From Pseudeuparius sepicola (lineage: Eukaryota > Arthropoda > Insecta > Coleoptera > Anthribidae), in assembly GCA_963920635.1 (NCBI GenBank), contig OY987298.1:24530647-24594646 (forward strand): DNA of 64,000 nucleotides. The letters are read 5' to 3'. The position numbers and the translations under genes were made by a program. Every line of letters begins with the position of its first letter. Position 1 is the first letter of the stretch. Positions 13,870 through 33,983 of this stretch are shown piece after piece. The notes below the pieces were generated by a model, which saw nothing but the letters and a program-made list of their open reading frames with translations, was not told the origin of the DNA and made no database searches.

Positions 13870-15560
13870 TTAAGGGGGGTCATTGTTAATGTCATTTGTC
13901 GATAGCGTCGATAAAGTGTCTAGGTTTTCTGTGCGGAAGTCTACGGTCAATTTCGTACATACATGCGTCCGTAAGTAGTCGGTTGGGGTGGTTAGTGTGA
14001 CGTCATAGATTTTTTGTGCGTGATTTATAATATATTGGGTTACTGTGGGTATGTTCATTGTGAATGGTCCTGTTTGAGGTGTACCACTCTGCACCTACTG
14101 CCATACGAAGGCACTTATTCTGTATAACTTGAATTTTGTTAATTGGCGACTTTGCCGCGAATCACCAAGCGGGGCACAACAATAAGGAGGGTGTGTATAA
14201 ATCAAAATTTTGTTTTGAACATTAAGCTTCCAGTTTCTGGATAGTAATGGAAATAATTTTGATAAAGCTCCTTTTGCCATATTTATCCTTGAGTCTACGT
14301 GAGAAGGCCACGTTAGTCTTTTGTCTATTTTGAGCCCTAAATAGACAACCTCGTCGCTGCAGTCAATGGGGACTTGATTCAGACTGATTGGCTGTATTTC
14401 CGGTGGTAATCTCTTTTTAGTAACTATGAGGGCTTTCATTTTTCGCTCATTTATTTTTATTTTCCATCTTACAAAATAATCTGCGACCAGGTTCAACGCA
14501 CGTTGTAGGAAAGCTTTAATCAGCCTCTGAGATTTATTTGTTGCTAGGATCGCGGTATCGTCCGCGTAAAGAGAGACTTTAGTGTGAGGATACGACGTTA
14601 AGTCACTGATAAAAATGGAATACCGAACCGGACCCAGTACTGAGCCCCGCAGCACGCCGGCCTATACGTTGCGGAACTCTGAACTTTTGTTTTCGACCCT
14701 GACACAGAATTTTCTGTCGGATAGAAAGTGTTTGACAAAGCGAACAATGGGGGCCGAGAAGCCCCCTCTGAGCATTTTATATAGCAGCCCCCAGTGCCAC
14801 ACTTTGTCAAAGGCCTTTGCAATATCCAACAGAATAATTCCAGCGCTTTAGCTTTTGCAAACTTTTGGTAACATTTTCGATTAGTCTGCAGGTTTGAAGC
14901 TCCGTACTGTGCATCGACCGAAAACCGAATTGCTCTCCCTGTATAATGGACAGATTATCAGCATCATTTACCAATCTGGAGAGTAGCACTTTTTCAACGA
15001 TCTTTGATATAGTAGAAAGAAGGCTGTCTATAATCACTTGGCGAATTTGAGCCACTCCTTTTCGGGATGGTAATTATTTGGGACTTTTTCCAAATAGCAG
15101 GGAAGTATTGAGTCCTTAGGATGCTATTTGTTAGATTTAGTATTGCAATTGATATTTTTTCGGTAGTAATTTAATCGCTTTGTTATTGATACCATCGAGG
15201 CCGGGGGCTTTTCTTATTGGTAGAAATTTGATAATATTATTTATCTCCTCCAGGTCACTTAGGGGAAGCTGACCCGGTGGAGCTTGTACCATTCTCGTTG
15301 TCGTTTCAATAACCTCATCCTCCGAGTCCGGGTCATCCCTGGGATTTAGGTTAAGCGAAAACTGAGAGACGTACTCGTTCGCGGTAAAAACGTTTGGTGG
15401 CATCGGTGTCTCTGTCGTTTTTCCCTTAAGGTTTTTAATACCTAATTCGCCAGAAAGAGCGTTGTGTCGAAGTCAAAATTTCTCGTGACTGTTGCCAGTT
15501 GTCGTTTTTAAAGTCGGAAATCTGATCTTTTAGCTGCGTCTTGTAAAGTAGCAATGCACA
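13870..15560 (-). pseudogene. Jockey-type non-LTR retrotransposon, reverse transcriptase remnant
   Basis: Minus-strand pieces in order are: a region with APGLDGINNKAIKLLP (15140-15400), a segment with SKIVEKVL and QFGFR (14870-15055), then GSVLGP and the catalytic YADDTA block followed by the thumb region with EVVYLGLKIDKRLTW (14095-14655), and a short C-terminal tail (13870-14094). This is the RT domain order of Jockey/CR1-like LINEs. Frameshifts and stops separate the pieces. No endonuclease domain or ORF1 is seen upstream, so it is a 5'-truncated, dead copy. Confidence 0.9.
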
Positions 15561-20182: not shown

Positions 20183-21208
20183 TTATTCAACCGTTACCAG
20201 TAGCGAGACTGAAAGCACAGAGTATTTGTAAGCATAGAATAGCCACGACTATTCTGTGCCGAAAGCTTGGAGTTTGATCTTTCTCCATTCATCAAAAGTC
20301 CAGCAATGACATTTCACATTTGGACAAAAAGTTCAAAATAGATTTATGCCATGATGAGGGTGGCTTATACCATATTTTTTTAGATTTATGTCCTCAAGCG
20401 CAATTCACCTGAAATTGAAAAATCCAAAACACTTTTTCAGCTTTTACCCTTGTAGATTGAAAATGAGCGGGATTCGGATAATACTTGATTGGCCCAATTG
20501 CTCTATTTTGACATCAGCATCAGCATTTCACATAGGCAGAAATCGTGACTTGAATGACAAATATTTTCCATTTTTTTCCACGGTAACATGGAGTTTCTTT
20601 ACTGGTATACTAAACATATGACATTGACAATGTATATCAGCAGAATCGGACACATCTTTGTCCATCGGACCATCTGTGTCTTGGTCTCAAAAACCAAATA
20701 AATATAGTTTGTTCCTTTTAAAAAATGTAACACACCAGAAAGCTTGTATATTCCCTGCAATCTTTGGTTTAACCTTTTTTTAGCACAAAAATAAACAAGT
20801 TATAGGGTGGCCTGTTCTCAGGTGATCTCCCTGTGCCATTATTTAATGACTCACTTTTTATATCCTTAGAACAAATATGACTACAATAACAGACAAATAT
20901 TTTGCATTTCTGGGACTACGATTGTACAACAATAATTTTATTCCCTCAGAATTAAAATGTTTAAATAGTTTTGATATGTTTTCCTGCTCCCTCCTCCATA
21001 AATATACTTCACGCATAGGTACTCGTCAGCACTCCTGAAAGTGTAGGCTGGATATTTCATTGTTTTGAGTGGAATGGAGCTACTCAATGAAAAAAATGGT
21101 GATAGGTTGTAGGGGGTATTCTGTGGTTATAGGTTTTCAGTTTCTGACGTTTAGAATGTCACAATATTTTAAAAATCCAGCTTTATTATCATTTACCTTC
21201 TTTTTATA

Positions 21209-22166
21209 GACCGTCAGACAGTGACAGATTTTCCTTACTGATTTTCTCATTTATGCCTTGGAGAGGGTTGAAAGGTAAATCGATGCTGAGTCGGAAAATA
21301 GTAATTTTAAGTTTGGCCCCCGGGGAAAACATATGGAAAATTCGATTTTTCAAAACAGAAAAAGTACTAAGGTACTAATTCTCACTTATGCCATGTTCAC
21401 CGTTCACCGTATGATTTCTTATACTATTCCGACCTCGAAAAGCCAAAGGCATAAGTGACGCTTGTGGAAAAAGGGTTGTATTAAGGGTTTGGCAGATCAC
21501 ACAAAAAATGACTTGGTTTACTGACTCCGTCATTTATTCCGTTCGAAATGGTGAAAACTTATATCCTCACTAGCCCAAAAATTGATTGGCAGAAGAGATA
21601 CGTGGGGGAAAATGCACTTTTGGGCCGGAAAATAAGTCGGAATTTTTTTTGTCAACTGATTTTGTCAGGTATAAAATGAATTGCAATAAAACTTTCTATA
21701 GTTTCAGAGGCATAAGTGCAGAAATCAGTTGACGAAAAAAAATTTTTTCCAACTTATCTTTCGACCCAAAAGTGCATTTTTCCCCATGCGTCACTTCTGC
21801 CAATCAATTTTTGGGCTAGTGAGGATATAAGTTTTCACCATTTCGAATGGCATAACCGACGGAGTCAGTAAACCAAGTCATTTTTTGTGTGATCTGCCAA
21901 ACCATTAATTCAACCCTTTTTCCACATGCCACACTTATATCTTTGGGTTTTCGAGGTCGGAATAGTATAAGAAATCATACGGTGAACATGGCATAAGTGA
22001 GAATTAGTACCTTTTTTTCTGTTTTGAAAAATCGAATTTTCCATATGTTTTCCGGGGGCCAAACTTAAAATTACTATTTTCCGACTCAGCATCGATTTAC
22101 CTTTCAACCCTCTCCAAGGCATAAATGAGAAAATCAGTAAGGAAAATCTGTCACTGTCTGACGGTC
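21209..22166. mobile_element. Foldback element family A, ends GACCGTCAGACAGTGACAG
   Basis: The arms are nearly perfect inverted copies of more than 400 bp, from GACCGTCAGACAGTGACAG on the left to CTGTCACTGTCTGACGGTC on the right, with TA at both borders. It is inserted in an interspersed repeat whose uninterrupted relative is at 34540-34660 ('ccttccttttacggtaacgaat'). A second copy lies at 50912-51923. Confidence 0.9.
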
Positions 22167-22268
22167 TATTATGGCAACGAATCTCTTTGCAGCCAATATT
22201 TTGTAGTTTTGTGTCATAAAGTCGTATGTATACCCTCTTACATCCTTCTGTCAAAATATTACTTCAAG

Positions 22269-22297: not shown

Positions 22298-22772
22298 CTT
22301 CAAGTTTGACACAAAGAATACGAAAGAATGTCATATATTATGCGCACATACGATTTTATGTCACGACTAATTATTAAAAGTATTAAAATTAAAGCTAACA
22401 TCTCTCCACTTTTACAATGAAAGGAGTAAAAACTTACAGTCTCAGCTCCACAAACACAGCTTTTTTTAATATCAACTGTACACATGTACCCTCCCCCTCC
22501 TAGGGGGTCATCTTCAGCAGTGTAACATAGAAAATTCAAAGCTAGAAAAAAATATATTTTTGAATTAGGTACCTAGGAACTTATATGGAGTAATGAAGTT
22601 ATACAATAAAATTGAATAATAAAAGGTGCTTACCTTTCTAGACGTAGTCTATAATAATTATATATATAATTATCTAAAAAGGCTTCGTCGTAATATAATA
22701 CAGAGCAATTTGAAACCAACGAATAAAAAATTAGTGAAAAAGAGGTCAAAGAAGCTTGGCAGAAAACATGCA

Positions 22773-23184
22773 TGTTATATCCGACCTCAAGCATCACCTT
22801 GATCATAACCTTGTTTTTACCCTTGATTCTGTTTACTGTTGGATATTATGTTCTCATTCTCTATTGTTCAAGATGCTTACTACACAGATATCATTTTCCA
22901 TTGTATATTGTTCTAGAATGATTACTAGAACATATCATATTCCTATTGAGTATTGTTAAAACTTGCTTACTGCAAGAATTGCAGAATTTGATCTTCCCTT
23001 TGTCTTTATATTCTTTTCCCATGAGAACCACAACACCTCAGCATAACAGATCTGTATAAATAGGACCTAGTAGAGTAAGAGTGTGAATTCTAGTCTTGTC
23101 TGTAGTCTAAGCCGAAACTCTGTAACTCGCGTTACTCAAATAAAAGTTTTTTAAAAAGTCTTCGTCTTCACGTCGCCCGTAACA
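22773..23184 (+). repeat. 5' LTR, 412 bp
   Basis: Begins TGTTATATCC and ends CGCCCGTAACA. A TATAAATA box lies at 23055-23062 and an AATAAA signal at 23139-23144, giving a plausible U3/R/U5 layout with transcription starting about 25-30 bp after the TATA box. Confidence 0.95.
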
Positions 23185-23204
23185 ATTTGGTGTCAGAAGT
23201 GGGA
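23185..23204 (+). promoter_or_regulatory. Primer-binding site, probably tRNA-Leu
   Basis: Immediately after the LTR comes TTTGGTGTCAGAAGTGGG. From memory this complements the 3' end of a tRNA-Leu (TGG = CCA end). A comparison with insect tRNA sequences would settle the isotype. Confidence 0.65.
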
Positions 23205-23212
23205 TCCTCGAT

Positions 23213-23351
23213 AAAAGGGTCTTCAACGAGGGAGATCCGGAGGCACTTAGAAGGACAGTCTCCTCGGGGGTCACCACAACACTACGATTGGAGCCAGCTG
23301 AAAAGGGTCTTCGACAGGGAGATCCGGAGGCACTAAGAAGGACAGTCTCCT
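23213..23351 (+). repeat. Duplicated 52-bp block in the retroelement leader
   Basis: The block AAAAGGGTCTTCAACGAGGG... at 23213-23264 recurs at 23301-23351 with a few differences (period 88 bp). Both contain GAGATCCGGAGGCACT and GGACAGTCTCCT. Leader repeats in insect errantiviruses can bind host factors or act in packaging; no role can be read from this sequence. Confidence 0.85.
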
Positions 23352-23399
23352 GAGGCCAGCATCCAGCAACAACAGCAGCATCAACGACATCCAGCGAGC

Positions 23400-23422
23400 A
23401 TGAAGTTACTTCTATTGTAAGT
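23400..23422 (+). promoter_or_regulatory. Short upstream start codon and splice donor for env RNA
   Basis: An ATG at 23400 opens a leucine-rich start that meets the consensus donor TT|GTAAGT at 23416/23417 after 17 nt. Unspliced, the frame stops at once, leaving gag (ATG 23525) as the next start. The phase fits the acceptor at 29101-29102. Confidence 0.75.
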
Positions 23423-23524
23423 GAAAAACTTGAAGTGAATTTTATTTGTGATTTTTTTTTGAACTTTCTACGTTGCTATTATTGAACTTTCTACGTTATA
23501 ACGATATTACCTTTTCATTTCAAC

Positions 23525-24721
23525 ATGCCGAATAACGAAGCTATAAACTCTAATGTAAACAATGAAGCAAACGCTTCAAATAACGACGAAGTACCATTTA
23601 AATTAAGCGAAATATTTTCTATCATCCCTGAATACGATGGGGATCAAATCAATTTAAATACTTTTATCATTGCATGTGATAGGGCCATGCAAATGACTGT
23701 TGGCGACCAAGCCATTTTACTTGTTATAAAAATTAAAAATCAATTAAAGGGACGTGCAGCTCAACTCATTAATTCAAGGGACTTGAGTACCTGGAGGGAA
23801 ATCAAACAATTACTTAACGTTCATTTCGGAGATCCTCGCGATCTAACTTCATTAATTCAAGATTTACAAAGAATGTGTCAATCTCAAAATGAAAATGCTT
23901 TGACTTTTGTAGGCAGAGTTCAAACTCACTGCTCAAAAATGTATGCCGCAATAGGAAAACAAAGCCTTCTCACTAGGGAACAAAAAGAATCGCAAGCTAC
24001 CTTAATCGATAGCATGTGTTTAAATACAGTTTTGACAGGTTTAGAACCAAGAATAGGGCAACTAATTCGTGCTAGCAATCCACCAAACATGATGGATGCT
24101 ATAGCTTTAATTAAGAGAGAATTGCAACTTTCTTATTTTGAAAATCAAAAATTTCAGAGGCAAAATCGTGTACCAGTCTTCAATAATAATGTCAAAAGAA
24201 CCAGTAATAATTTTCCAAAATTTTGTAATTATTGCAAAAGAAATGGACATACTATCAATGAATGTCGAACTAAAAATCAAAATAATTATTACAGAAATGG
24301 TCCAAATCCTTCTAGCTACTATAACAATTTCCAAAACAACTCCCAAAGAAATAATTTCTCCCAAAATAGGTTCCATCAAAGACCATCTTTTCCTCAGCAA
24401 AATAATTTTCAAACTCCTTCTTTCCAACCTAGGAATCACCCTCAAAACTTCCAACCAAGAAATCAACCTCCTAGAAATTTTTCTAATAATATTCCTAGAA
24501 ACAATTTTCCAAGAACTTTTAATAATAATTCAGGTTTCCAGCCTTCTAATCAAAATTTTACTCCTAGATTCCCAAATTCAAATCCAAATAACCAAAATAG
24601 AACTCCCCAACAACATTATCTGGGCCAAAGCGAAAATTTTCAATTAACAGCCTCGGACCAGAATCCTATTCCCAACTTCAAGAATCTTGGTATGACCAAT
24701 ACGGACCAAACGTTTGCATAA
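23525..24721 (+). CDS. gag: Gag-like protein, 398 aa, with one zinc knuckle
   Basis: Gag proteins form the particle and bind the element RNA. Residues about 25-205 look like a helical capsid domain (FSIIPEYDGD, then TFVGRVQTHCSKMYAA). A single CCHC knuckle has Cys234, Cys237, His242 and Cys247 (spacing C-X2-C-X4-H-X4-C). From about residue 250 the tail is almost only Asn, Gln, Pro, Phe and Arg, typical of RNA-binding, disordered sequence. The ATG at 23525 is the first usable start after the short upstream frame. The 3' end overlaps the open pol frame by about 120 nt (24601-24721). Confidence 0.93.
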   Translation: MPNNEAINSNVNNEANASNNDEVPFKLSEIFSIIPEYDGDQINLNTFIIACDRAMQMTVGDQAILLVIKIKNQLKGRAAQLINSRDLSTWREIKQLLNVHFGDPRDLTSLIQDLQRMCQSQNENALTFVGRVQTHCSKMYAAIGKQSLLTREQKESQATLIDSMCLNTVLTGLEPRIGQLIRASNPPNMMDAIALIKRELQLSYFENQKFQRQNRVPVFNNNVKRTSNNFPKFCNYCKRNGHTINECRTKNQNNYYRNGPNPSSYYNNFQNNSQRNNFSQNRFHQRPSFPQQNNFQTPSFQPRNHPQNFQPRNQPPRNFSNNIPRNNFPRTFNNNSGFQPSNQNFTPRFPNSNPNNQNRTPQQHYLGQSENFQLTASDQNPIPNFKNLGMTNTDQTFA

Positions 24722-27327
24722 ATACCGTTGACAATAGCAATCTATATTATATTAAAGATAATAAAGATAAGTACAAAATTTTAATTGACACAGGAGCTGG
24801 TATTTCAATTTTCAAACCAGAGACGGTTCAGCAATTTTTAAATCGATGTCCAGAAAATTTTCAAATTAAAGGTATTTCTGGCCAATCAATTCCTATTACT
24901 GAAGCGGTATTTGTTTCTTTTACGGGTCCTCTTTCTCCCCATAAAGTTTATATTTGCGATCTAGATATAGGATTCGACGGAATTTTAGGCGCTGACTTTT
25001 TAGAAAGGTACGGTGCAGTAGTAGATTTTAGGAATAAACAATTAATTACGTACTATAAGGTACACGAATTACTCAAAGACGGAGATGAATTAAACGAGTT
25101 AACGAATAATAATGATAATAATAATCGAGTTGTTTATAAAAGACAAGTTAATGTTGACGAAAGATACGATAGCCTTCATATAAACGCTTATGAACGAAAT
25201 AATAATAATAATAATGATTACACGGAAAATATAAATAATTTTGAAAGCGAAAATACGAGTTATAATATAAATCAGGTTACGATAGAACCGCGTTGCGAAA
25301 AAATATGCAAGTTTCATACGAATAGATATACGAATAAAGAAATGATTTTATGCGCACAACGAGTAGAAAAGGTATACGTGCCAAATGCTATAGTAAAAAT
25401 AAACGAAGACGGTAATTTTTATACGACAATATTAAACGCTAATGCCATAACAAAGGATATTTGTTTCGAAGAATTTGAATTTGAGCCTTACATTAAAGAA
25501 ACGAACGCTAGTGCTAATATTATTTGTAATTTTAATAAAACGAAAAGCAGAGTAGAAGAAATAAAAGAATCATTAAGGCTAGAACATTTAAACGAAGAAG
25601 AAAAAGAATTAATTACTAATTTATGCTTGAATTTTGAAGATATATTTTACTTTGACGGAGATTTCCTAAGTTTCACTAATGAAATAAAACATACTATCGA
25701 TACAGGCGACGCTAAGCCAATTTTTACTAAATCTTATCGATATCCACAAGTTCACAAGGAAGAAGTAAAAACACAAATTAATAAAATGCTTTCTCAAGGA
25801 ATAATTAGACCTTCTGTTTCACCATGGTCGTCCCCAGTATGGGTCGTTCCAAAAAAATTAGACGCTTCAGGCAAACAAAAATGGAGAATCGTAATTGATT
25901 ATAGGAAATTAAATGAATTAACAGTTAATGACAGGTATCCACTGCCTAATATTTCAGATATATTAGATCAGTTGGGTAATTGCCATTATTTTACTACTTT
26001 AGATTTGGCTTCTGGTTTTCAACAAATTGAAATGAATCCAGAAGACATTTCGAAAACTGCTTTTTCCGTTGAAAATGGACATTTCGAATATTTACATATG
26101 CCCTTTGGCCTTCGTAATGCGCCCTCAACCTTTCAGAGGGTTATGGATAATATACTAATGGGGATACAAAACGAAAAGTGCTTAGTTTACATGGACGACA
26201 TTATTATTTATTCTTCCACAATTAATGAACATATCTCTCGTATTACTGAAGTTTTTCAAAGATTAAGAAATTCAAATCTAAAAATACAGCCAGATAAGTG
26301 TGAATTCTTACGAAAAGAAGTAATCTATTTAGGGCATGTTATTACACCTGAAGGGGTTAAACCAAATCCACAAAAAGTACAAGCTGTTATCGATTTTCCT
26401 CAACCTGCCAATACTAAACAAATTAAACAATTTTTGGGTCTTACTGGTTACTACAGGAAGTTTATTCCAAACTTCGCAAAAATGACAAAGCCTTTAACTC
26501 GACTTTTAAGAAAAGACGTACCATTTATTTTTGATAAAGATTGTCGTGAATCTTTCGAACAACTTAAAAATGCATTAATAACTTCACCAATTCTAATATA
26601 TCCTAATTTTGAAAAAGAATTTGTTTTAACTACAGATGCAAGCGCTTTTGCTGTAGGCGCGGTACTTTCGCAAGGACCTGTTGGAAATGATCTTCCCATA
26701 GCATACTTTTCAAGAACCTTAAGTCCAGCAGAAATGAAATATAGCGTTATAGAGAAAGAACTATTGGCAATAATTGCTGCCGTAAAAAACTATAGACCTT
26801 ATCTTTTCGGACGAAAATTCTTATTGGTTACAGATCATAGACCTTTAACCTGGCTTTTCTCAATAAAAGATCCCGGTAGTTGTTTAGCACGTTGGCGACT
26901 TAAATTAGAAGAATATAATTATCAAATAATTTATAAACCTGGAAAAATTAATCGAAATGCCGACGCTTTATCTCGAATCAAAATCAATCATATAAAAGAA
27001 GCTGTTTCCTTTCATACTTCCCTAGACGAACCATCTACTTCCCATGATAATCCTCAAGACATTGACCCGCCTATTGACAATAATGAGACTGACGAAATTG
27101 CTATAATCTGTAATGAATTTGACAGATTTTTTGATCTATACAAGACGACTTCAATGATCGATTATTCTAAAATCCAATATACAAATAATCAACTTTTAGA
27201 CAAAACACACAAGGACATTGTACTAATTTTTCAACAAGACAAATTAACATACCTTCACGAAAAAGTTATTGATGATTTACTTGAGCTAACTATAATAAAG
27301 CAAATGTTCTTTCCAGTCAAACCGTAG
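24601..27327 (+). CDS. pol: Pol: protease, reverse transcriptase, RNase H
   Basis: The open frame runs from 24601, in -1 relative to gag, so it is expected as a Gag-Pol fusion by ribosomal frameshifting. The protease motif DTGAG is encoded at 24787. RT follows with VIDYRKLN (near 25890), FTTLDLASGFQQI and the catalytic YMDD at 26188-26199. RNase H starts near 26630 with TDASAFAVGAVLSQ and contains the E and D of KELLAI and TDHRPLTW. The frame ends at 27327 although the integrase continues in another frame. That break is not expected for this family and suggests an indel between about 27280 and 27327. An in-frame ATG at 25342 lies inside the RT region and is unlikely to be a true start. Confidence 0.95.
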   Translation, partial: NSPTTLSGPKRKFSINSLGPESYSQLQESWYDQYGPNVCINTVDNSNLYYIKDNKDKYKILIDTGAGISIFKPETVQQFLNRCPENFQIKGISGQSIPITEAVFVSFTGPLSPHKVYICDLDIGFDGILGADFLERYGAVVDFRNKQLITYYKVHELLKDGDELNELTNNNDNNNRVVYKRQVNVDERYDSLHINAYERNNNNNNDYTENINNFESENTSYNINQVTIEPRCEKICKFHTNRYTNKEMILCAQRVEKVYVPNAIVKINEDGNFYTTILNANAITKDICFEEFEFEPYIKETNASANIICNFNKTKSRVEEIKESLRLEHLNEEEKELITNLCLNFEDIFYFDGDFLSFTNEIKHTIDTGDAKPIFTKSYRYPQVHKEEVKTQINKMLSQGIIRPSVSPWSSPVWVVPKKLDASGKQKWRIVIDYRKLNELTVNDRYPLPNISDILDQLGNCHYFTTLDLASGFQQIEMNPEDISKTAFSVENGHFEYLHMPFGLRNAPSTFQRVMDNILMGIQNEKCLVYMDDIIIYSSTINEHISRITEVFQRLRNSNLKIQPDKCEFLRKEVIYLGHVITPEGVKPNPQKVQAVIDFPQPANTKQIKQFLGLTGYYRKFIPNFAKMTKPLTRLLRKDVPFIFDKDCRESFEQLKNALITSPILIYPNFEKEFVLTTDASAFAVGAVLSQGPVGNDLPIAYFSRTLSPAEMKYSVIEKELLAIIAAVKNYRPYLFGRKFLLVTDHRPLTWLFSIKDPGSCLARWRLKLEEYNYQIIYKPGKINRNADALSRIKINHIKEAVSFHTSLDEPSTSHDNPQDIDPPIDNNETDEIAIICNEFDRFFDLYKTTSMIDYSKIQYTNNQLLDKTHKDIVLIFQQDKLTYLHEKVIDDLLELTIIKQMFFPVKP
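24634..24640 (+). promoter_or_regulatory. Candidate -1 frameshift site A AAT TTT
   Basis: In the gag frame the codons read GAA AAT TTT, which places the heptamer A-AAT-TTT in the X-XXY-YYZ register used for -1 slippage. It lies inside the 120-nt gag/pol overlap, and pol is exactly -1 to gag. I could not confirm a downstream pseudoknot. Confidence 0.7.
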
Positions 27328-28448
27328 CTAAAAGAAAATATTATATAATTCCTGTTCCTTTTAATTTTGAAACCGCAATACAAGTACTCTTCATATCTCT
27401 TTATTACAGTAAAGATATATTCGAAGAAAATAAAACTTATTACATTGAAAACAATCCAGATTTTCCAATTTTAGAAATGTTTAATTTTTTGTTCTCAGAT
27501 AAAAATTTCCAACTAACAATTTGTCAGAACATTGTGACTATACCAGACGAAGACCAAATACCTATAATAATAGATCAATTTCATTCAGGCAAGACAAACT
27601 TACATCGAGGAATAAACGAAACAATTAGACGTATTAAACAAAAATATAATTGGACAGGACTAACTAAAGACGTTGAAACCTTTATTCGACAGTGCGAAAT
27701 CTGCCAAAAGACAAAAATTTGCAGACAAAACTTGGACAGTCCCTTAGTTATTACCGAAACTCCTAAAACTCCTTTCGAAAGAATAAATATCGACATCCTA
27801 GAAATCCCAGTAAAAAATAATATCCTTACCATAAGAGACGAACTAACAAAATTTACCCAAGCTTATGCACTTCCTAATAAAACAGCGAGATCTGTAGTAG
27901 ACGCTCTTTTACTCTATTTTCAACATTTTGGAACTCCCTTAAGAATCCATTGCGATGTAGGTAAAGAATTTAATAATCAATTAATGAAAGATCTTTGTAA
28001 ATTATACAATATAAAATTAACTTTCTCTAGTGTTAGTCATCCGCAATCAAATGGCTCCTTAGAAAGATTTCATGCCACCTTAACTGAAATGATACGCGCA
28101 TGTAGTACAGAAAATCCTAACGAACACCCATTTCAAATGCTTCCTTACGCTTGTATAGCATATAACAATTCTATAAATAAAACACACGGCTTTACTCCTT
28201 ACGAATTGCTATTCGGTCACACCTCGTCTCGACCTCCAGAAGTTTTGTATAATCAGCAAGAATTAATCTCTAAGTACGTTCGCGATTTAAACAATAAAAT
28301 AAAGCATTATTATGAAGTGGCAAGAAAGCGTACGGATATGCGCAAGCAAAAAGCAAAACAGCGATTTGATACACACGTTTCGGAGCAGCGACAATTTCGC
28401 GTAGGAGAAAAGGTTTATGTCAAGGAGTCCCAAAAAAAAAAAAACTAG
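27285..28448 (+). CDS. Integrase part of pol
   Basis: This frame lacks its own upstream start (first ATG at 27477, inside the domain) and continues the pol polyprotein after the frame break. The N-terminal HHCC zinc-binding domain is visible (two His near 27590-27600, then CEICQKTK). The catalytic core follows with the three acidic residues: Asp in INIDIL (about 27790), Asp in HCDVGKEF (about 27953) and Glu in SLERFH (about 28063). The frame ends at 28448 directly after a 13-A run at 28432-28444; homologous C-terminal sequence continues in a different frame. Homopolymer slippage, or an assembly error, is the simple explanation. Confidence 0.92.
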   Translation, partial: ANYNKANVLSSQTVAKRKYYIIPVPFNFETAIQVLFISLYYSKDIFEENKTYYIENNPDFPILEMFNFLFSDKNFQLTICQNIVTIPDEDQIPIIIDQFHSGKTNLHRGINETIRRIKQKYNWTGLTKDVETFIRQCEICQKTKICRQNLDSPLVITETPKTPFERINIDILEIPVKNNILTIRDELTKFTQAYALPNKTARSVVDALLLYFQHFGTPLRIHCDVGKEFNNQLMKDLCKLYNIKLTFSSVSHPQSNGSLERFHATLTEMIRACSTENPNEHPFQMLPYACIAYNNSINKTHGFTPYELLFGHTSSRPPEVLYNQQELISKYVRDLNNKIKHYYEVARKRTDMRKQKAKQRFDTHVSEQRQFRVGEKVYVKESQKKKN

Positions 28449-29083
28449 CTAACAAATTTAATGGACCCTATAAAATTAAAGAAATTTATACGAATTCAGC
28501 TTTGCTACATAACCCAATTACTAACCAAACTACAAAAATGAATTTTGATATGCTAAAGAAATGTCACAAATTACAGGAAGAAGAACTAACGGTTAAAGAA
28601 TTCTTTTATACTCTAGATCGAAAAATCCCTATTGAAAATAATAACGTTTCCATTGAACTGGGCAATTTATTTGATGCCCCTGAAAATATTTCCTTAGCCC
28701 ACTGTGTATCTAAAGATTTAGAAATGAATGCAGGAATTGCAAAAGAATTTAAGAATAAATTTGGACACGTAGATGAACTAAAAAATCAAAATAAGTCAAT
28801 TAGTGAAATAGCAGTACTTCAACTACCGACAAGAAATATTTATTATTTAATAACTAAAGAATTTTTCTATTATAAACCAACTTATGCTAATTTATTTAAT
28901 TGCTTGAAGGAATTACGAACAAATTGTCTCGAGAGCACTGATGAAAAAGATAAAATTATAGCTATACCCAAGTTAGCTTGTGGATTAGACAAATTAGATT
29001 GGGACACAGTTCTCCCTATGATCAAATATATTTTCAAAAATACTGATATTAAAATAATTTGTTATATCGAACCAAGTTCCTAA
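28442..29083 (+). CDS. Pol C-terminus with macro domain (TARG1/OARD1-like)
   Basis: After the A-run the frame first encodes the end of the integrase (KFNGPYKIKEIY). A macro domain then occupies about 28643-29071. It shows the family's order: a GNLFDAP strand, SLAHCVSKDLEMNAGIA (the nucleotide-binding loop), FKNKFG, YYLITK, KPTYANL, and ACGLDKLDW near the end. Macro domains of the TARG1 type remove terminal ADP-ribose from proteins and use a Lys and an Asp; the equivalents are the Lys of LITK (28856-28858) and the Asp of CGLD (28988-28990), both present. It appears fused to pol, not a separate gene: there is no ATG before it in good context, and it runs straight on from the integrase tail. It ends 18 bp before the env splice acceptor. 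Confidence 0.85.
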   Translation, partial: KLANKFNGPYKIKEIYTNSALLHNPITNQTTKMNFDMLKKCHKLQEEELTVKEFFYTLDRKIPIENNNVSIELGNLFDAPENISLAHCVSKDLEMNAGIAKEFKNKFGHVDELKNQNKSISEIAVLQLPTRNIYYLITKEFFYYKPTYANLFNCLKELRTNCLESTDEKDKIIAIPKLACGLDKLDWDTVLPMIKYIFKNTDIKIICYIEPSS

Positions 29084-29102
29084 TTCTGAAACTTCGTTAC
29101 AG

Positions 29103-30207
29103 ATTTTCTTTGTTCGCTACCGCTATGGCACAATATACACTGCGACCAATTAATAACACCATAGGCGTGTTCTATCAAGAGCAATCCGGACTCAAAATTT
29201 CTAATGACAAGTGGAGTTTATTGGTATATAAAGACATTTCATCTCTAAAAACAACATTCGAAAATAATAATAAGATTTTAGAAAATATGCAATTTATAAT
29301 TCAACCAAAAGACGTACGAATGGCCGCCTTTCTAAGCGAAGTTAAGTCACATCTCACTTTACTAAATCAACTTTCCGAAAACATTGCGCTCAAATTTGAA
29401 GAATTAGCTATTGATGTAAGAAGATATAAAAGAGGTTTAATTAATGGTTTAGGGTCAGTTTCAAGATGTGAAGCTCAATTATTAGAGGTAAAAACCCATT
29501 TACCTAATACTTGTGACATAGTCACAATTTCAATTGAAAGTTACAATGTACAATTGATTCAAGAGAATCAATGGTTAATAATTTTAAGTGAAATATTTCC
29601 TATAACTATTAAGTGCAAAAATCAAAATCCTTTGACTATAATGCTAGACAAAACTTCAATTTTAACGTTAAAATCTGAATGCATTGCTTATATTGGAAGT
29701 ACTAAAATTCAAACGAAAAATTTAAATAAATCTAATCAAACCTATAAATTTCACCCAATTAATATACCATTTGAATGTTGCAAAGAAACTCCAAATAAAC
29801 TAAAATATCCTGACTTAAAACCTTTACAACTAAATAAATTTAATTATGACGATTTAAATGTCGCAAAGCATAAATTAGACGAATATGCAAAGGATCTTGA
29901 TAATATTATTAACGAACCAACTGTAAATAAGTATACGCCAATATTGACATATCTATCCATTACTTTAATCATACTTTTAATTATTGTGTACTTTTATTTT
30001 AAATGTAAAAAGTCTAGGAACATTAAAATAGGCATTATTACTACTAATAACGGAGACGATCCTCCACAACCTCCTAGAACACGAAATCGCGTTTTTCAAA
30101 ATTTAAGAAAATTTGTTACTGTCAAAAGAAGACCTTCGTATAGATTGGACGAACCTCGCGAAGAAGAAGAAATTGAACTAAATTCTAATACTAAAACATA
30201 TGCCTAA
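29103..30207 (+). CDS. env: Env-like envelope protein (insect F-type), probably internally deleted
   Basis: The frame opens right after an AG acceptor (29101-29102) and its first residues are hydrophobic. With the 17-nt leader exon at 23400-23416 it would form a typical signal peptide ending near MAQ; without splicing the first ATG is 29125. About 75 codons on comes an extracellular region, then a furin-like basic site (RRYKR) followed by a Gly/Leu/Ile-rich start like the fusion peptide of baculovirus F and errantivirus Env. A membrane segment lies near 29935-30000, with a basic cytoplasmic tail. The stretch between fusion peptide and Cys-rich region is much shorter than in relatives I know, suggesting an internal deletion. 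Env-bearing errantiviruses can be infectious in insects; this copy probably is not. Confidence 0.85.
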
Positions 30208-30244
30208 TTTAATGTCAAAATTTGTTAACACAAATTTTTAATAT

Positions 30245-30255
30245 AAGGGGGAAGG
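30245..30255 (+). promoter_or_regulatory. Polypurine tract
   Basis: The purine run AAGGGGGAAGG ends immediately before the 3' LTR, the normal position for plus-strand DNA priming. Confidence 0.9.
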
Positions 30256-30667
30256 TGTTATATCCGACCTCAAGCATCACCTTGATCATAACCTTGTTTT
30301 TACCCTTGATTCTGTTTACTGTTGGATATTATGTTCTCATTCTCTATTGTTCAAGATGCTTACTACACAGATATCATTTTCCATTGTATATTGTTCTAGA
30401 ATGATTACTAGAACATATCATATTCCTATTGAGTATTGTTAAAACTTGCTTACTGCAAGAATTGCAGAATTTGATCTTCCCTTTGTCTTTATATTCTTTT
30501 CCCATGAGAACCACAACACCTCAGCATAACAGATCTGTATAAATAGGACCTAGTAGAGTAAGAGTGTGAATTCTAGTCTTGTCTGTAGTCTAAGCCGAAA
30601 CTCTGTAACTCGCGTTACTCAAATAAAAGTTTTTTAAAAAGTCTTCGTCTTCACGTCGCCCGTAACA
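30256..30667 (+). repeat. 3' LTR, 412 bp
   Basis: Same length as the 5' LTR and apparently identical to it. It is followed by the TGCA target duplication (30668-30671). Confidence 0.95.
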
Positions 30668-31310
30668 TGCATCTTACCCTGAGGATATTATGTCGTCGCA
30701 ATGATAAAAAAATTAGATGGAATTAGGAACCATTTGGAGATTTGTAATGAGATTTCTTAGGTGTTTAATCATAATGCGGTGACCTGACGTGTCCTCCTCG
30801 TAAATTTTAATACGAATTTTTGGTTCTTTGGAACCCCTCAAATGGTTCCTAATTCCTTATAATTTTTTGATCATTGTAACTACATAATATCCTCAGGGTA
30901 AGACGCATGTTTTCTGCCAAGCTTCTTTGGCCTATTTTTCACTAATTTTTTATTCGTTGGTTTCAGATTCCTCTATATTATGTTACCTATATGTTTTTTA
31001 AATTTTTAACGAAGCCTTTTTACATAATTATTATTTTTCATATTAATTTTCCACATTCGCATACATAAATCAGACTACGTCTAGAAAGGTAAGCACCTTT
31101 TATTATTCAATTTTATTGTATAACTTCATTACTCCATATATAAGTTCCAAGGTACCTAATTCGAAAATATTTTTTTCTAGCTTTGAATTTTCTATAATGT
31201 TACACTGCTGAAGATGACCCCTTAGGAGGGTTGGAACATATATGTACAGTTGATATTAAAAAAAGCTGTGTTTCTGGACCTGAGACTGTAAGTTTTTACC
31301 CCTTTCGTTG

Positions 31311-32582
31311 TATTCTCCCGCTCCACTTCAAGGCATGGACTTATTTCCTCAGTCCCCACTTTTACCTTAAAAATTGTACTACTTGCTATCTAAGGTTTTT
31401 GAATGTTTTTATTTATTTCTTCAATTTTACATCCTTTTTCTATGATTTTTAGAACAAAAGACACTACCTACTTTTCTAAAAAGAGTGGCATAAATAACAA
31501 CTTAATTTTACTGTTCGAACAGATGTTTTTCGAACAAATGTTTTTTTTTGCACTGATGTTTTCGAACAAAATTCCGTAACCCGTATTGTTCAAAATCTAA
31601 CTCTTGATAATTAATTCAAAATATATTTATATATTTCAAACATAAAATGAAAGATATTGTACAGTGAAATTTTCCAATATCTAAAAGTCCATTTTTCTCA
31701 AAACTACGTATTTGAACGAACGATTTTATGTTATTATGGGTTTCACAATGATCGTTTTATAAACTGTTTTTGATCTGAAAGGATACGAATTATGCGAAAG
31801 AAAAATAATATCATTTTTCAATATTTCCTCGGTGTCGAGTGGCTTAATAAGACAAAATCAATTGACACAATAATTATTATTTAACTTTTTTATTATGGCT
31901 GCATTCTTTCCCTTTATCACCGATTATCATTTTTAGTAATCGAAAAATGGTTATCAGGGGCAGAAGGGCTATAATATCTAACCAGCCCGGGCACTTGTCT
32001 CCCAAGCGGCCCCTAAATATGTATCTCATTTGGCTTTAGATTTTTTCTTTTGTTAATTATTATAATAACAATTAAAAAAACAATGTAGATAATGTTACTT
32101 TTTAATGAAACAAAATATAATTTTTTTTATAAAAATATAAATAAAACCATAACTCTCATAAAAGAAATGAAACTTTTTTCTGTAAATATAAATATATAAA
32201 AATATCAAAACACGTAAAGAAATAATAAAACAAAAAATAACAAAACAAAAATACGTATGATTATAACTCGCAATCTACTCCTAATACCTAATATGAAATT
32301 GTTGGTAACAGGAATAAGTTATTATTTTACTCGATGCTTAAGCTCTTTTTTGGCCTCCAAGGTTCTTAAACAACCTCCTCGGCCAAAAAAGTGCACTTAT
32401 GCAATGTAAAAAATGTCTCAGTACACCGTGATATCAAATACACAGTGAGATTACCTATATTATTATTATTATTATGAATAATAATTGAGTGTTTATATGT
32501 GTTTACATAGAGTGGATATATTTATTAGGTGTATGTTTCATTGTTCACCTTTGCATACTATTATAATATTCGAGAATATTAT
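31311..32582. other. A+T-rich intergenic, no gene seen
   Basis: Includes a short run of repeated TTCGAACA-type motifs at 31515-31570 and long A/T tracts at 32050-32250. No coding or RNA feature is supported. Confidence 0.45.
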
Positions 32583-33741
32583 TATACAGGGTGATTCATT
32601 GGGAATGGGAAATCCCGAAACTGGGGGTAGGGGAGACCAAAATATTGTGATTGAGTCCAACATTGCTTAAACAAATGTTGTTTGTTTGAGAGATACAGTG
32701 CGTTCAAGTCCTTCTTTTTTAGATTGAATTATGGCTATATCTACCAAAATAATCAAGCTGCTGACCTGAAATTTGGCACTGCTATGTTTTTGGGGATGGA
32801 GAATAAGCTGAAAATGTCAACTTCTACGTATCTCACAGAGGGCGCCACTTGCGCGGTTTTTGGATCGTGCTTTTGTGAGGTTTTGGTCCTGCAGGTTTGT
32901 CATTTTAGCGCACCTTTTCATTCTGCAACAAAAAGGTACTCTTGTTCCATAATGCCCAAATCAACCGTTTGCGTTTAAATTGCCAAAACGTGCCCCAAAA
33001 CACCTGTTGACTTCAATATTCGAAAAACAAAATTTTCACCTACTACTTTCAAATGTTACAGATCAACTGTACATTGAAAATGAAGAAAAAATGACAAATG
33101 AACATTGGTCGAAACACATTTGTTTTCTTGAAATAGGGTGTCCAAAGTTTGTCGAGTTTCAATCTGTTCCATTTTGAAAGTGAACATTTTTTGGGACATT
33201 GTTCATATGGGTTTTTTTCTCGCTTTAAATGGTACAGTCTTTGTGCAATATTTGAAAGCAGTAGGTGAATATTTTATTTTTCGAATCTTGAAGTCAGCAG
33301 GTGTTTCGGGGCACGTTTTGGCAATTTCAATGCAAACGGTTGATTTGAGCGTTATGAAACAAGAATACCTTTTTGTTGCAGAATAAAAAGATGCACTAAA
33401 GTGATGGACCTGCAGGACCAAAAAGATAACCTCAAAAAAGTTACGCGTAAAAGCGTGATCCAAAAACCGCGCAAGTGGCGCCCTCTGTGAGATACGTAGA
33501 AGTTGACATTTTCAGCTTATTCTCCATCCCCAAAAACATAGCAGTGCCAAATTTCAGGTCAGCAGCTTGATTATTTTGGTAGATATAGCCATAATTCAAT
33601 CTAAAAAAGAAGAACTTGAACGCACTGTATCTCTCAAACAAACAACATTTGTTTAAGCAATGTTGGACTCAACCACAATATTTTGGTCTCCCCTACCCCC
33701 AGTTTCGGGATTTCCCATTTCCAATGAATCACCCTGTATAA
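32583..33741. mobile_element. Foldback element ending ACAGGGTGATTCATTGG
   Basis: TATACAGGGTGATTCATTGG at the left is inverted at the right (CCAATGAATCACCCTGTATA). The arms are long and nearly identical, including 'gagagatacagtgcgttcaag' and its complement. Open frames on both strands are mirror images of the arms, not genes. Its interior is related to that of the element at 59240-60140. Confidence 0.9.
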
Positions 33742-33983
33742 TTATTATTGGATTATGATCTTTGAAATTATGCTGGTTTGTAATGTATGTATTAACTTTA
33801 TTTGTTAATCCATGTAGTAAATTATCTCAGGCCCTAGACAGAAGGAAAATACTTCCGAAATTTTAGCAGATGTTGCTGACTTGCTCAATAAAAAATCATC
33901 GAATCAATCTGTCAGGAAATAGCAGTGTGAATCTCACTTCTAAGAAAACAGGAAAGTATTTATAAAAATAAAAACAAAATTCG

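Follow-up and report, generated by a model that had tools for sequence, protein, structure and literature searches.

The DNA analysed here is a 64,000-nt stretch from Pseudeuparius sepicola (Coleoptera; Anthribidae), taken from assembly GCA_963920635.1 (contig OY987298.1, positions 24,530,647 to 24,594,646 of the forward strand); the whole stretch is called the window, and all coordinates are window positions. It carries an errantivirus-type long terminal repeat (LTR) retroelement, which encodes a complete macro domain homologous to TARG1 in the reading frame of its integrase tail, inside the LTRs and the target duplication. This C-terminal domain is most likely an ADP-ribosyl hydrolase carried with the integrase, as predicted from its sequence. 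In addition, the region between RNase H and integrase in the same group of Pol proteins appears to be an older macro-fold domain in a decayed state.

Translation of positions 28442-29083 revealed that no stop codon separates the GPY stretch of the integrase tail (NKFNGPYKI) from the macro domain, the frame ending with the stop codon at 29081. The original prediction had placed a complete macro domain with the order of TARG1/OARD1 proteins between the integrase tail and env, and the homology searches bore this out. The hidden Markov model of Pfam Macro (PF01661) matched at 28706-29020 with an E-value of 5.6e-5 and 23.5 bits, just over the cut-off of 22, and the best match to a PDB chain by phmmer was C6orf130/TARG1 (E 3.5e-36), which was collinear over 144 query residues. 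C6orf130/TARG1 accounted for five of the six PDB matches at E<=1, the remaining one being another macro protein (E 0.043), and the only NCBIfam match was DarG. The nucleotide-binding loop (AHCVSKD), the Lys of LITK and the Asp of CGLD, all named beforehand, are present, and the catalytic residues of TARG1 (K84 and D125; Lys in TK, Asp in loop 3) are thereby kept. These two residues and the other TARG1 ligand residues, as named in PMC6397177, were invariant in the ten sequences compared, and the identity between the window domain and 12 compared relatives was 39-54%. A chance open reading frame (ORF) was ruled out: of 5000 order-1 Markov sequences matched in composition, not one was open over 519 nt.

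Compared with the strict TARG1 pattern in the literature, TKx(30,35)Px[IL]GxGxD, the domain deviates slightly at two points, an Ala in place of the first Gly and a spacing of 36, and is therefore called TARG1-like, not TARG1. The same pattern also failed in the compared proteins P0005, P0008, P0009 and P0134, with the same Ala in P0005 and P0134. A relaxed form of the pattern, devised in this analysis, matched the window domain.

The element spans positions 22773-30667, its two LTRs are identical at 412 of 412 positions, and a 4-bp target duplication (TGCA) flanks both ends. These features, together with a Pol of the Ty3/gypsy type (reverse transcriptase, RNase H and integrase) and an Env of the baculovirus F type, are those of an errantivirus-type element, as originally predicted, and the element looks like a recently transposed, complete errantivirus-type LTR retroelement. 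The macro domain lies inside its boundaries in addition to a normal Pol; its open frame (28370-29083), situated between the integrase and env frames, shares the final 31 nt with the env open frame. The macro and env frames are open, and the pol of this copy is broken at two places into three frames. The first frame change lies between 27285 and 27327, inside the linker between RNase H and integrase, and the second between 28370 and 28448, a stretch that includes 13 consecutive A residues (28432-28444); the changes may be mutations or assembly errors. Accordingly, the claim that the pol frame encodes the macro domain stood only in part, since the domain shares the frame of the integrase tail and not that of the rest of pol. 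There is a high likelihood that the macro domain moved together with the element. No further copies of element parts were detected in the window at E<=1e-3, and the search for Rfam families and tRNAs found none.

The reverse transcriptase part was used as a query to collect related Pols. The search returned 7261 Pol matches, of which 120 were listed, and rarer macro-bearing Pols may have been missed. Among the matches listed, none of the 27 nearest Pols (P0014-P0040, 68-72% identity in the reverse transcriptase region) had a macro domain after the integrase, and all of them ended 0-31 residues past the integrase-tail motif (26 of 27 measured; P0031 read from the macro-domain search). A lineage trait at this position, which the original prediction had considered, is thus not supported among the Pols compared. 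When the window macro domain was compared with the 120 listed Pols, two matches were obtained at E<=10. The macro domain of P0078 (E 4.5e-42, residues 755-898) sits before the RNase H-integrase linker and keeps the catalytic residues, and P0109 matched weakly (E 7.9e-7). A search with the P0078 macro domain, restricted to long proteins, gave three matches from 201 candidates, namely P0078 itself, P0134 and P0135. P0134 is a Pol with reverse transcriptase, RNase H and integrase, whose sole linker is a TARG1-like macro domain with catalytic residues. P0135 (1015 aa) is not a Pol and joins TARG1-like macro, NADAR and helicase-like domains. The reverse transcriptase tree (66 of 115 rows) placed the three macro-bearing Pols in three places; P0134 joined P0109, both being long branches, and cluster 2, one of the Pol clusters described below, with a long-branch warning.

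The named hosts among the matches were three insects, Coccinella (P0005), Molorchus (P0008) and Plutella (P0103), and the pseudoscorpion Cordylochernes (P0053), an arachnid. The annotated Coccinella septempunctata protein P0005 resembled P0078 in two parts, the macro domain (53% over 129 residues) and the linker that follows it (33% over 93 residues). This ladybird 'gene' is probably, by its sequence, a fragment of a P0078-type Pol, and it is perhaps used by the host. In the predicted Molorchus minor protein P0008, the TARG1-like domain is split by an unrelated cysteine-containing stretch. Viral contigs gave no confirmed match among 6 stretches with the window ORF and none among 43 stretches with six Pols, and none of 38 was confirmed in genome contigs searched with the integrase ORF. 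Alignment A2 retrieved 48 loci from the viral contigs, the best one over most of the domain having 39% identity, and plasmid records contributed four bacterial matches of at most 35.5% identity.

The donor, which the original prediction expected a tree to show, was not fixed by the macro-domain tree (13 rows), in which all ten inner branches were unsupported. The five rows labelled as element-borne grouped together with a support of 46/0 and in 48% of 200 bootstrap trees, and two of 500 label shuffles did likewise; the label took in P0008 of Molorchus, which may be a cellular gene. P0008 is the sequence closest to the window domain (54% over 117 columns) and is not called the donor, because it is interrupted and its nature is unclear. 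A single origin of all element-borne macro domains was given up as unproven on the basis of the same tree.

The RNase H-integrase linker of the window element is common to its relatives, and no Pfam family exists for it. The Pols were divided into cluster 1 (n=39), cluster 2 (n=20) and cluster 0 (n=51 of 112 in total), after 7 of 121 had been dropped for having no recognisable linker end, and the linker models used 34 of the 39 linkers of cluster 1 and 32 of the 51 of cluster 0. TARG1 headed the list of structural matches of the linker, and Foldseek with the linker model found nothing in PDB or BFVD at E<=0.001. The linker was assigned to the macro fold on the evidence of VIA, pLDDT and the sequence chain. 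The model together with this chain shows that the Pols of cluster 1, the clade of the window element, carry an older domain of the macro fold ahead of the integrase and behind RNase H, in which the binding and catalytic loops have been lost. The relaxed Lys/Asp pattern of TARG1 was found in none of 112 Pols, P0078 and P0134 being left out. In hhalign comparisons of the three linker clusters with TARG1, cluster 2 alone rose above noise (22.4% with and 7.1% without the three element-borne rows). In a placement test with the profile lacking these rows, the Pols with a match numbered 28 in cluster 1 (total 39), 18 in cluster 2 (total 20) and 31 in cluster 0 (total 51), and the best sub-threshold match fell in the linker for 26, 15 and 10 of them, respectively. 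Among its 20 controls (one reversed, 19 column-shuffled), the count reached 26 of 38 for cluster 1 with one control and 19 of 19 for cluster 2 with a second; the test is therefore counted as weak. Neither the degenerate macro nature of the linker nor the TARG1-like domains elsewhere in other errantivirus-type Pols had been noted in the original prediction.

The explanation that we find somewhat more convincing than the others combined is an errantivirus-type Pol ending in a TARG1/DarG-type macro domain, the type having been captured long ago and having decayed to a linker in most lineages, with the C-terminal domain acting as an ADP-ribosyl hydrolase. A TARG1-type domain would have entered an errantivirus Pol at an early time and turned into a structural linker in most lineages, where it may serve as a spacer or structural module, while catalytic copies would have been kept or regained in a few (the window element, P0078 and P0134). 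The C-terminal macro domain would be delivered with the complex of integrase and complementary DNA, and may take ADP-ribose off integrase, host proteins or DNA ends, so as to reverse the PARP modification made during reverse transcription, entry into the nucleus or the gap repair that accompanies integration. A wider counter-defence could be a second use of the same activity; the counter-PARP function originally predicted is plausible. According to PMC8501950 and PMC6397177, TARG1 removes ADP-ribose from Glu/Asp and, as DarG does, from thymidine in DNA, with the Lys as nucleophile, and its K84A variant gives no rescue. DNA ends can be marked by PARP1-3 in vitro (PMC8501950), and the PARP-1 of flies binds to copia and gypsy and silences them (PMC3964218). 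A TARG1-like enzyme on integrase would be well placed to remove such marks, whether they sit on integrase itself, on host factors or on DNA ends. It is an even call whether these Pols hold a cryptic TARG1-derived macro domain that went from eraser to scaffold in most lineages, with fresh uptake of TARG1-like domains at least twice (after the integrase in the window element and before the linker in P0078). P0134, which has catalytic residues in the place of the linker, looks like an intermediate, as does P0109, in which the domain is half decayed.

Other explanations were weighed against this hydrolase reading. The domain could act in cytoplasmic counter-defence, stripping the ADP-ribose attached by antiviral PARPs with no special link to integration. 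RNA-virus macro domains are known to act in this way, and macro ORFs occur in fish retroviruses too; however, the window domain is fused to Pol, the product of which is expected in the core and the nucleus, and its top sequence matches are TARG1 and DarG, not the alphavirus or coronavirus type, so this is unlikely. Alternatively, the domain, situated at the C-terminus of the integrase, may be a reader, whose binding of ADP-ribose would direct integration towards ADP-ribosylated chromatin or breaks. Its position directly behind the integrase tail and the retained binding residues agree with this, and the chromodomains of chromoviruses are likewise modules added at the integrase C-terminus, although a chromodomain reads histone methylation whereas the window module has an ADP-ribose enzyme fold. 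Both catalytic residues, which a pure reader does not need, are nevertheless retained, and P0078 and P0134 have the domain elsewhere than at the integrase C-terminus, which makes a reader quite unlikely.

A passenger, that is, a host transcript gained by template switching in the element family and carried without benefit, would fit the absence of the domain at that place in the 27 nearest relatives, the single known copy and the pol broken in two places. We regard it as quite unlikely, since the domain is full-length and open, its ligand residues are kept despite an identity of only 39-54% to the relatives compared, and at least two other Pols have domains with catalytic residues. An accident in this copy, in which a piece of a host gene was inserted after transposition, is scarcely credible: one copy only was seen, but the domain is in frame with the integrase tail on one side and has the env frame directly next on the other, and the identical LTRs leave little time. 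Insertion after transposition was accordingly rejected on frame continuity and LTR identity.

Among known systems, TARG1/OARD1/C6orf130 and the macro domain of bacterial DarG are collinear with the window domain and have the same Lys, Asp and ligand residues, whereas the window domain is fused to an integrase within a retroelement and has the Ala and spacing differences described above. The macro domains of alphaviruses and coronaviruses are of another subtype, the window domain having its best sequence match in TARG1. Insect errantiviruses of the Ty3/gypsy type with F-like env share the LTRs, gag, the order of reverse transcriptase, RNase H and integrase, the Baculo_F env and the 4-bp duplication; the window element differs from them by the extra macro domain after the integrase, and the decayed linker is common to its relatives. 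A macro domain in a retroelement is already known, as fish epsilon-type endogenous retroviruses carry macro-domain ORFs (PMC4977317, citing Basta et al. 2009); there they are additional ORFs in vertebrate retroviruses and not in errantiviruses. The original prediction knew of no described case in this clade, and no errantivirus with a macro domain was found in the literature searched, which has few subscription papers. The main text of the 2025 insect endogenous retrovirus paper PMC12992720 uses neither the word 'macro' nor the word 'linker'. Within that literature two points appear to be new, the fusion of a TARG1-like domain to the end of an errantivirus-type integrase and the macro character of the linker.

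These results place an enzyme-type domain for the reversal of ADP-ribosylation in an errantivirus-type Pol, next to the integrase, and assign a fold, and a likely origin, to the unannotated region between RNase H and integrase in this Pol clade. It thereby becomes possible to test whether the integration of retroelements is restricted by PARP-type modification in hosts that carry elements of this kind. The fish precedent suggests independent uptake of macro domains by retroelements of distant hosts, and if the eraser-to-scaffold reading is true, ADP-ribosylation would be a recurrent battleground, or a recurrent integration tool, for these elements.

Table 1. Features of the errantivirus-type element, in window coordinates.
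Feature	Position	Strand	Remarks
5' LTR (412 bp, TG...CA)	22773..23184	+	TGCA duplication just before, 22769-22772
Probable tRNA primer-binding site (presumed)	23188..23205	+	directly 3' of 5' LTR
gag frame (stop to stop)	23486..24721	+	PF03732 E 0.0046, under the cut-off
pol frame 1: reverse transcriptase and RNase H	24601..27327	+	PF00078 E 3.8e-40, PF17917 E 6.1e-36
Putative degenerate macro-fold linker, part 1, reverse transcriptase frame	27112..27288	+	62.7 bits against a profile of the linkers of 34 relatives
pol frame 2: integrase zinc finger and core	27285..28448	+	PF17921 E 1.4e-16, PF00665 E 7.5e-11
Putative degenerate macro-fold linker, part 2, integrase frame	27294..27530	+	79.5 bits to linker profile
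Integrase C-terminal tail (GPY motif), in macro frame	28442..28561	+	
TARG1-like macro domain	28634..29065	+	loop 1 from 28697; catalytic codons at 28856-28858 (Lys) and 28988-28990 (Asp)
env frame (stop to stop), baculovirus F-protein type	29053..30207	+	Baculo_F PF12259 E 6.3e-9
3' LTR, same sequence as 5' LTR	30256..30667	+	TGCA just after, 30668-30671

Inverted-repeat arms that are 89-100% complementary were observed on either side of the element (22413-22777 and 30899-31312), and therefore the element seems to be inserted within an older foldback-type or MITE-like (miniature inverted-repeat transposable element) element. Long inverted repeats of the foldback type also lie beside it at 32578-33745 and 21206-22169 (297 nt with 98% and 241 nt with 91% complementarity). 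On the minus strand, positions 14095-14661 contain a reverse transcriptase fragment of another retroelement (PF00078, E 1.3e-10).
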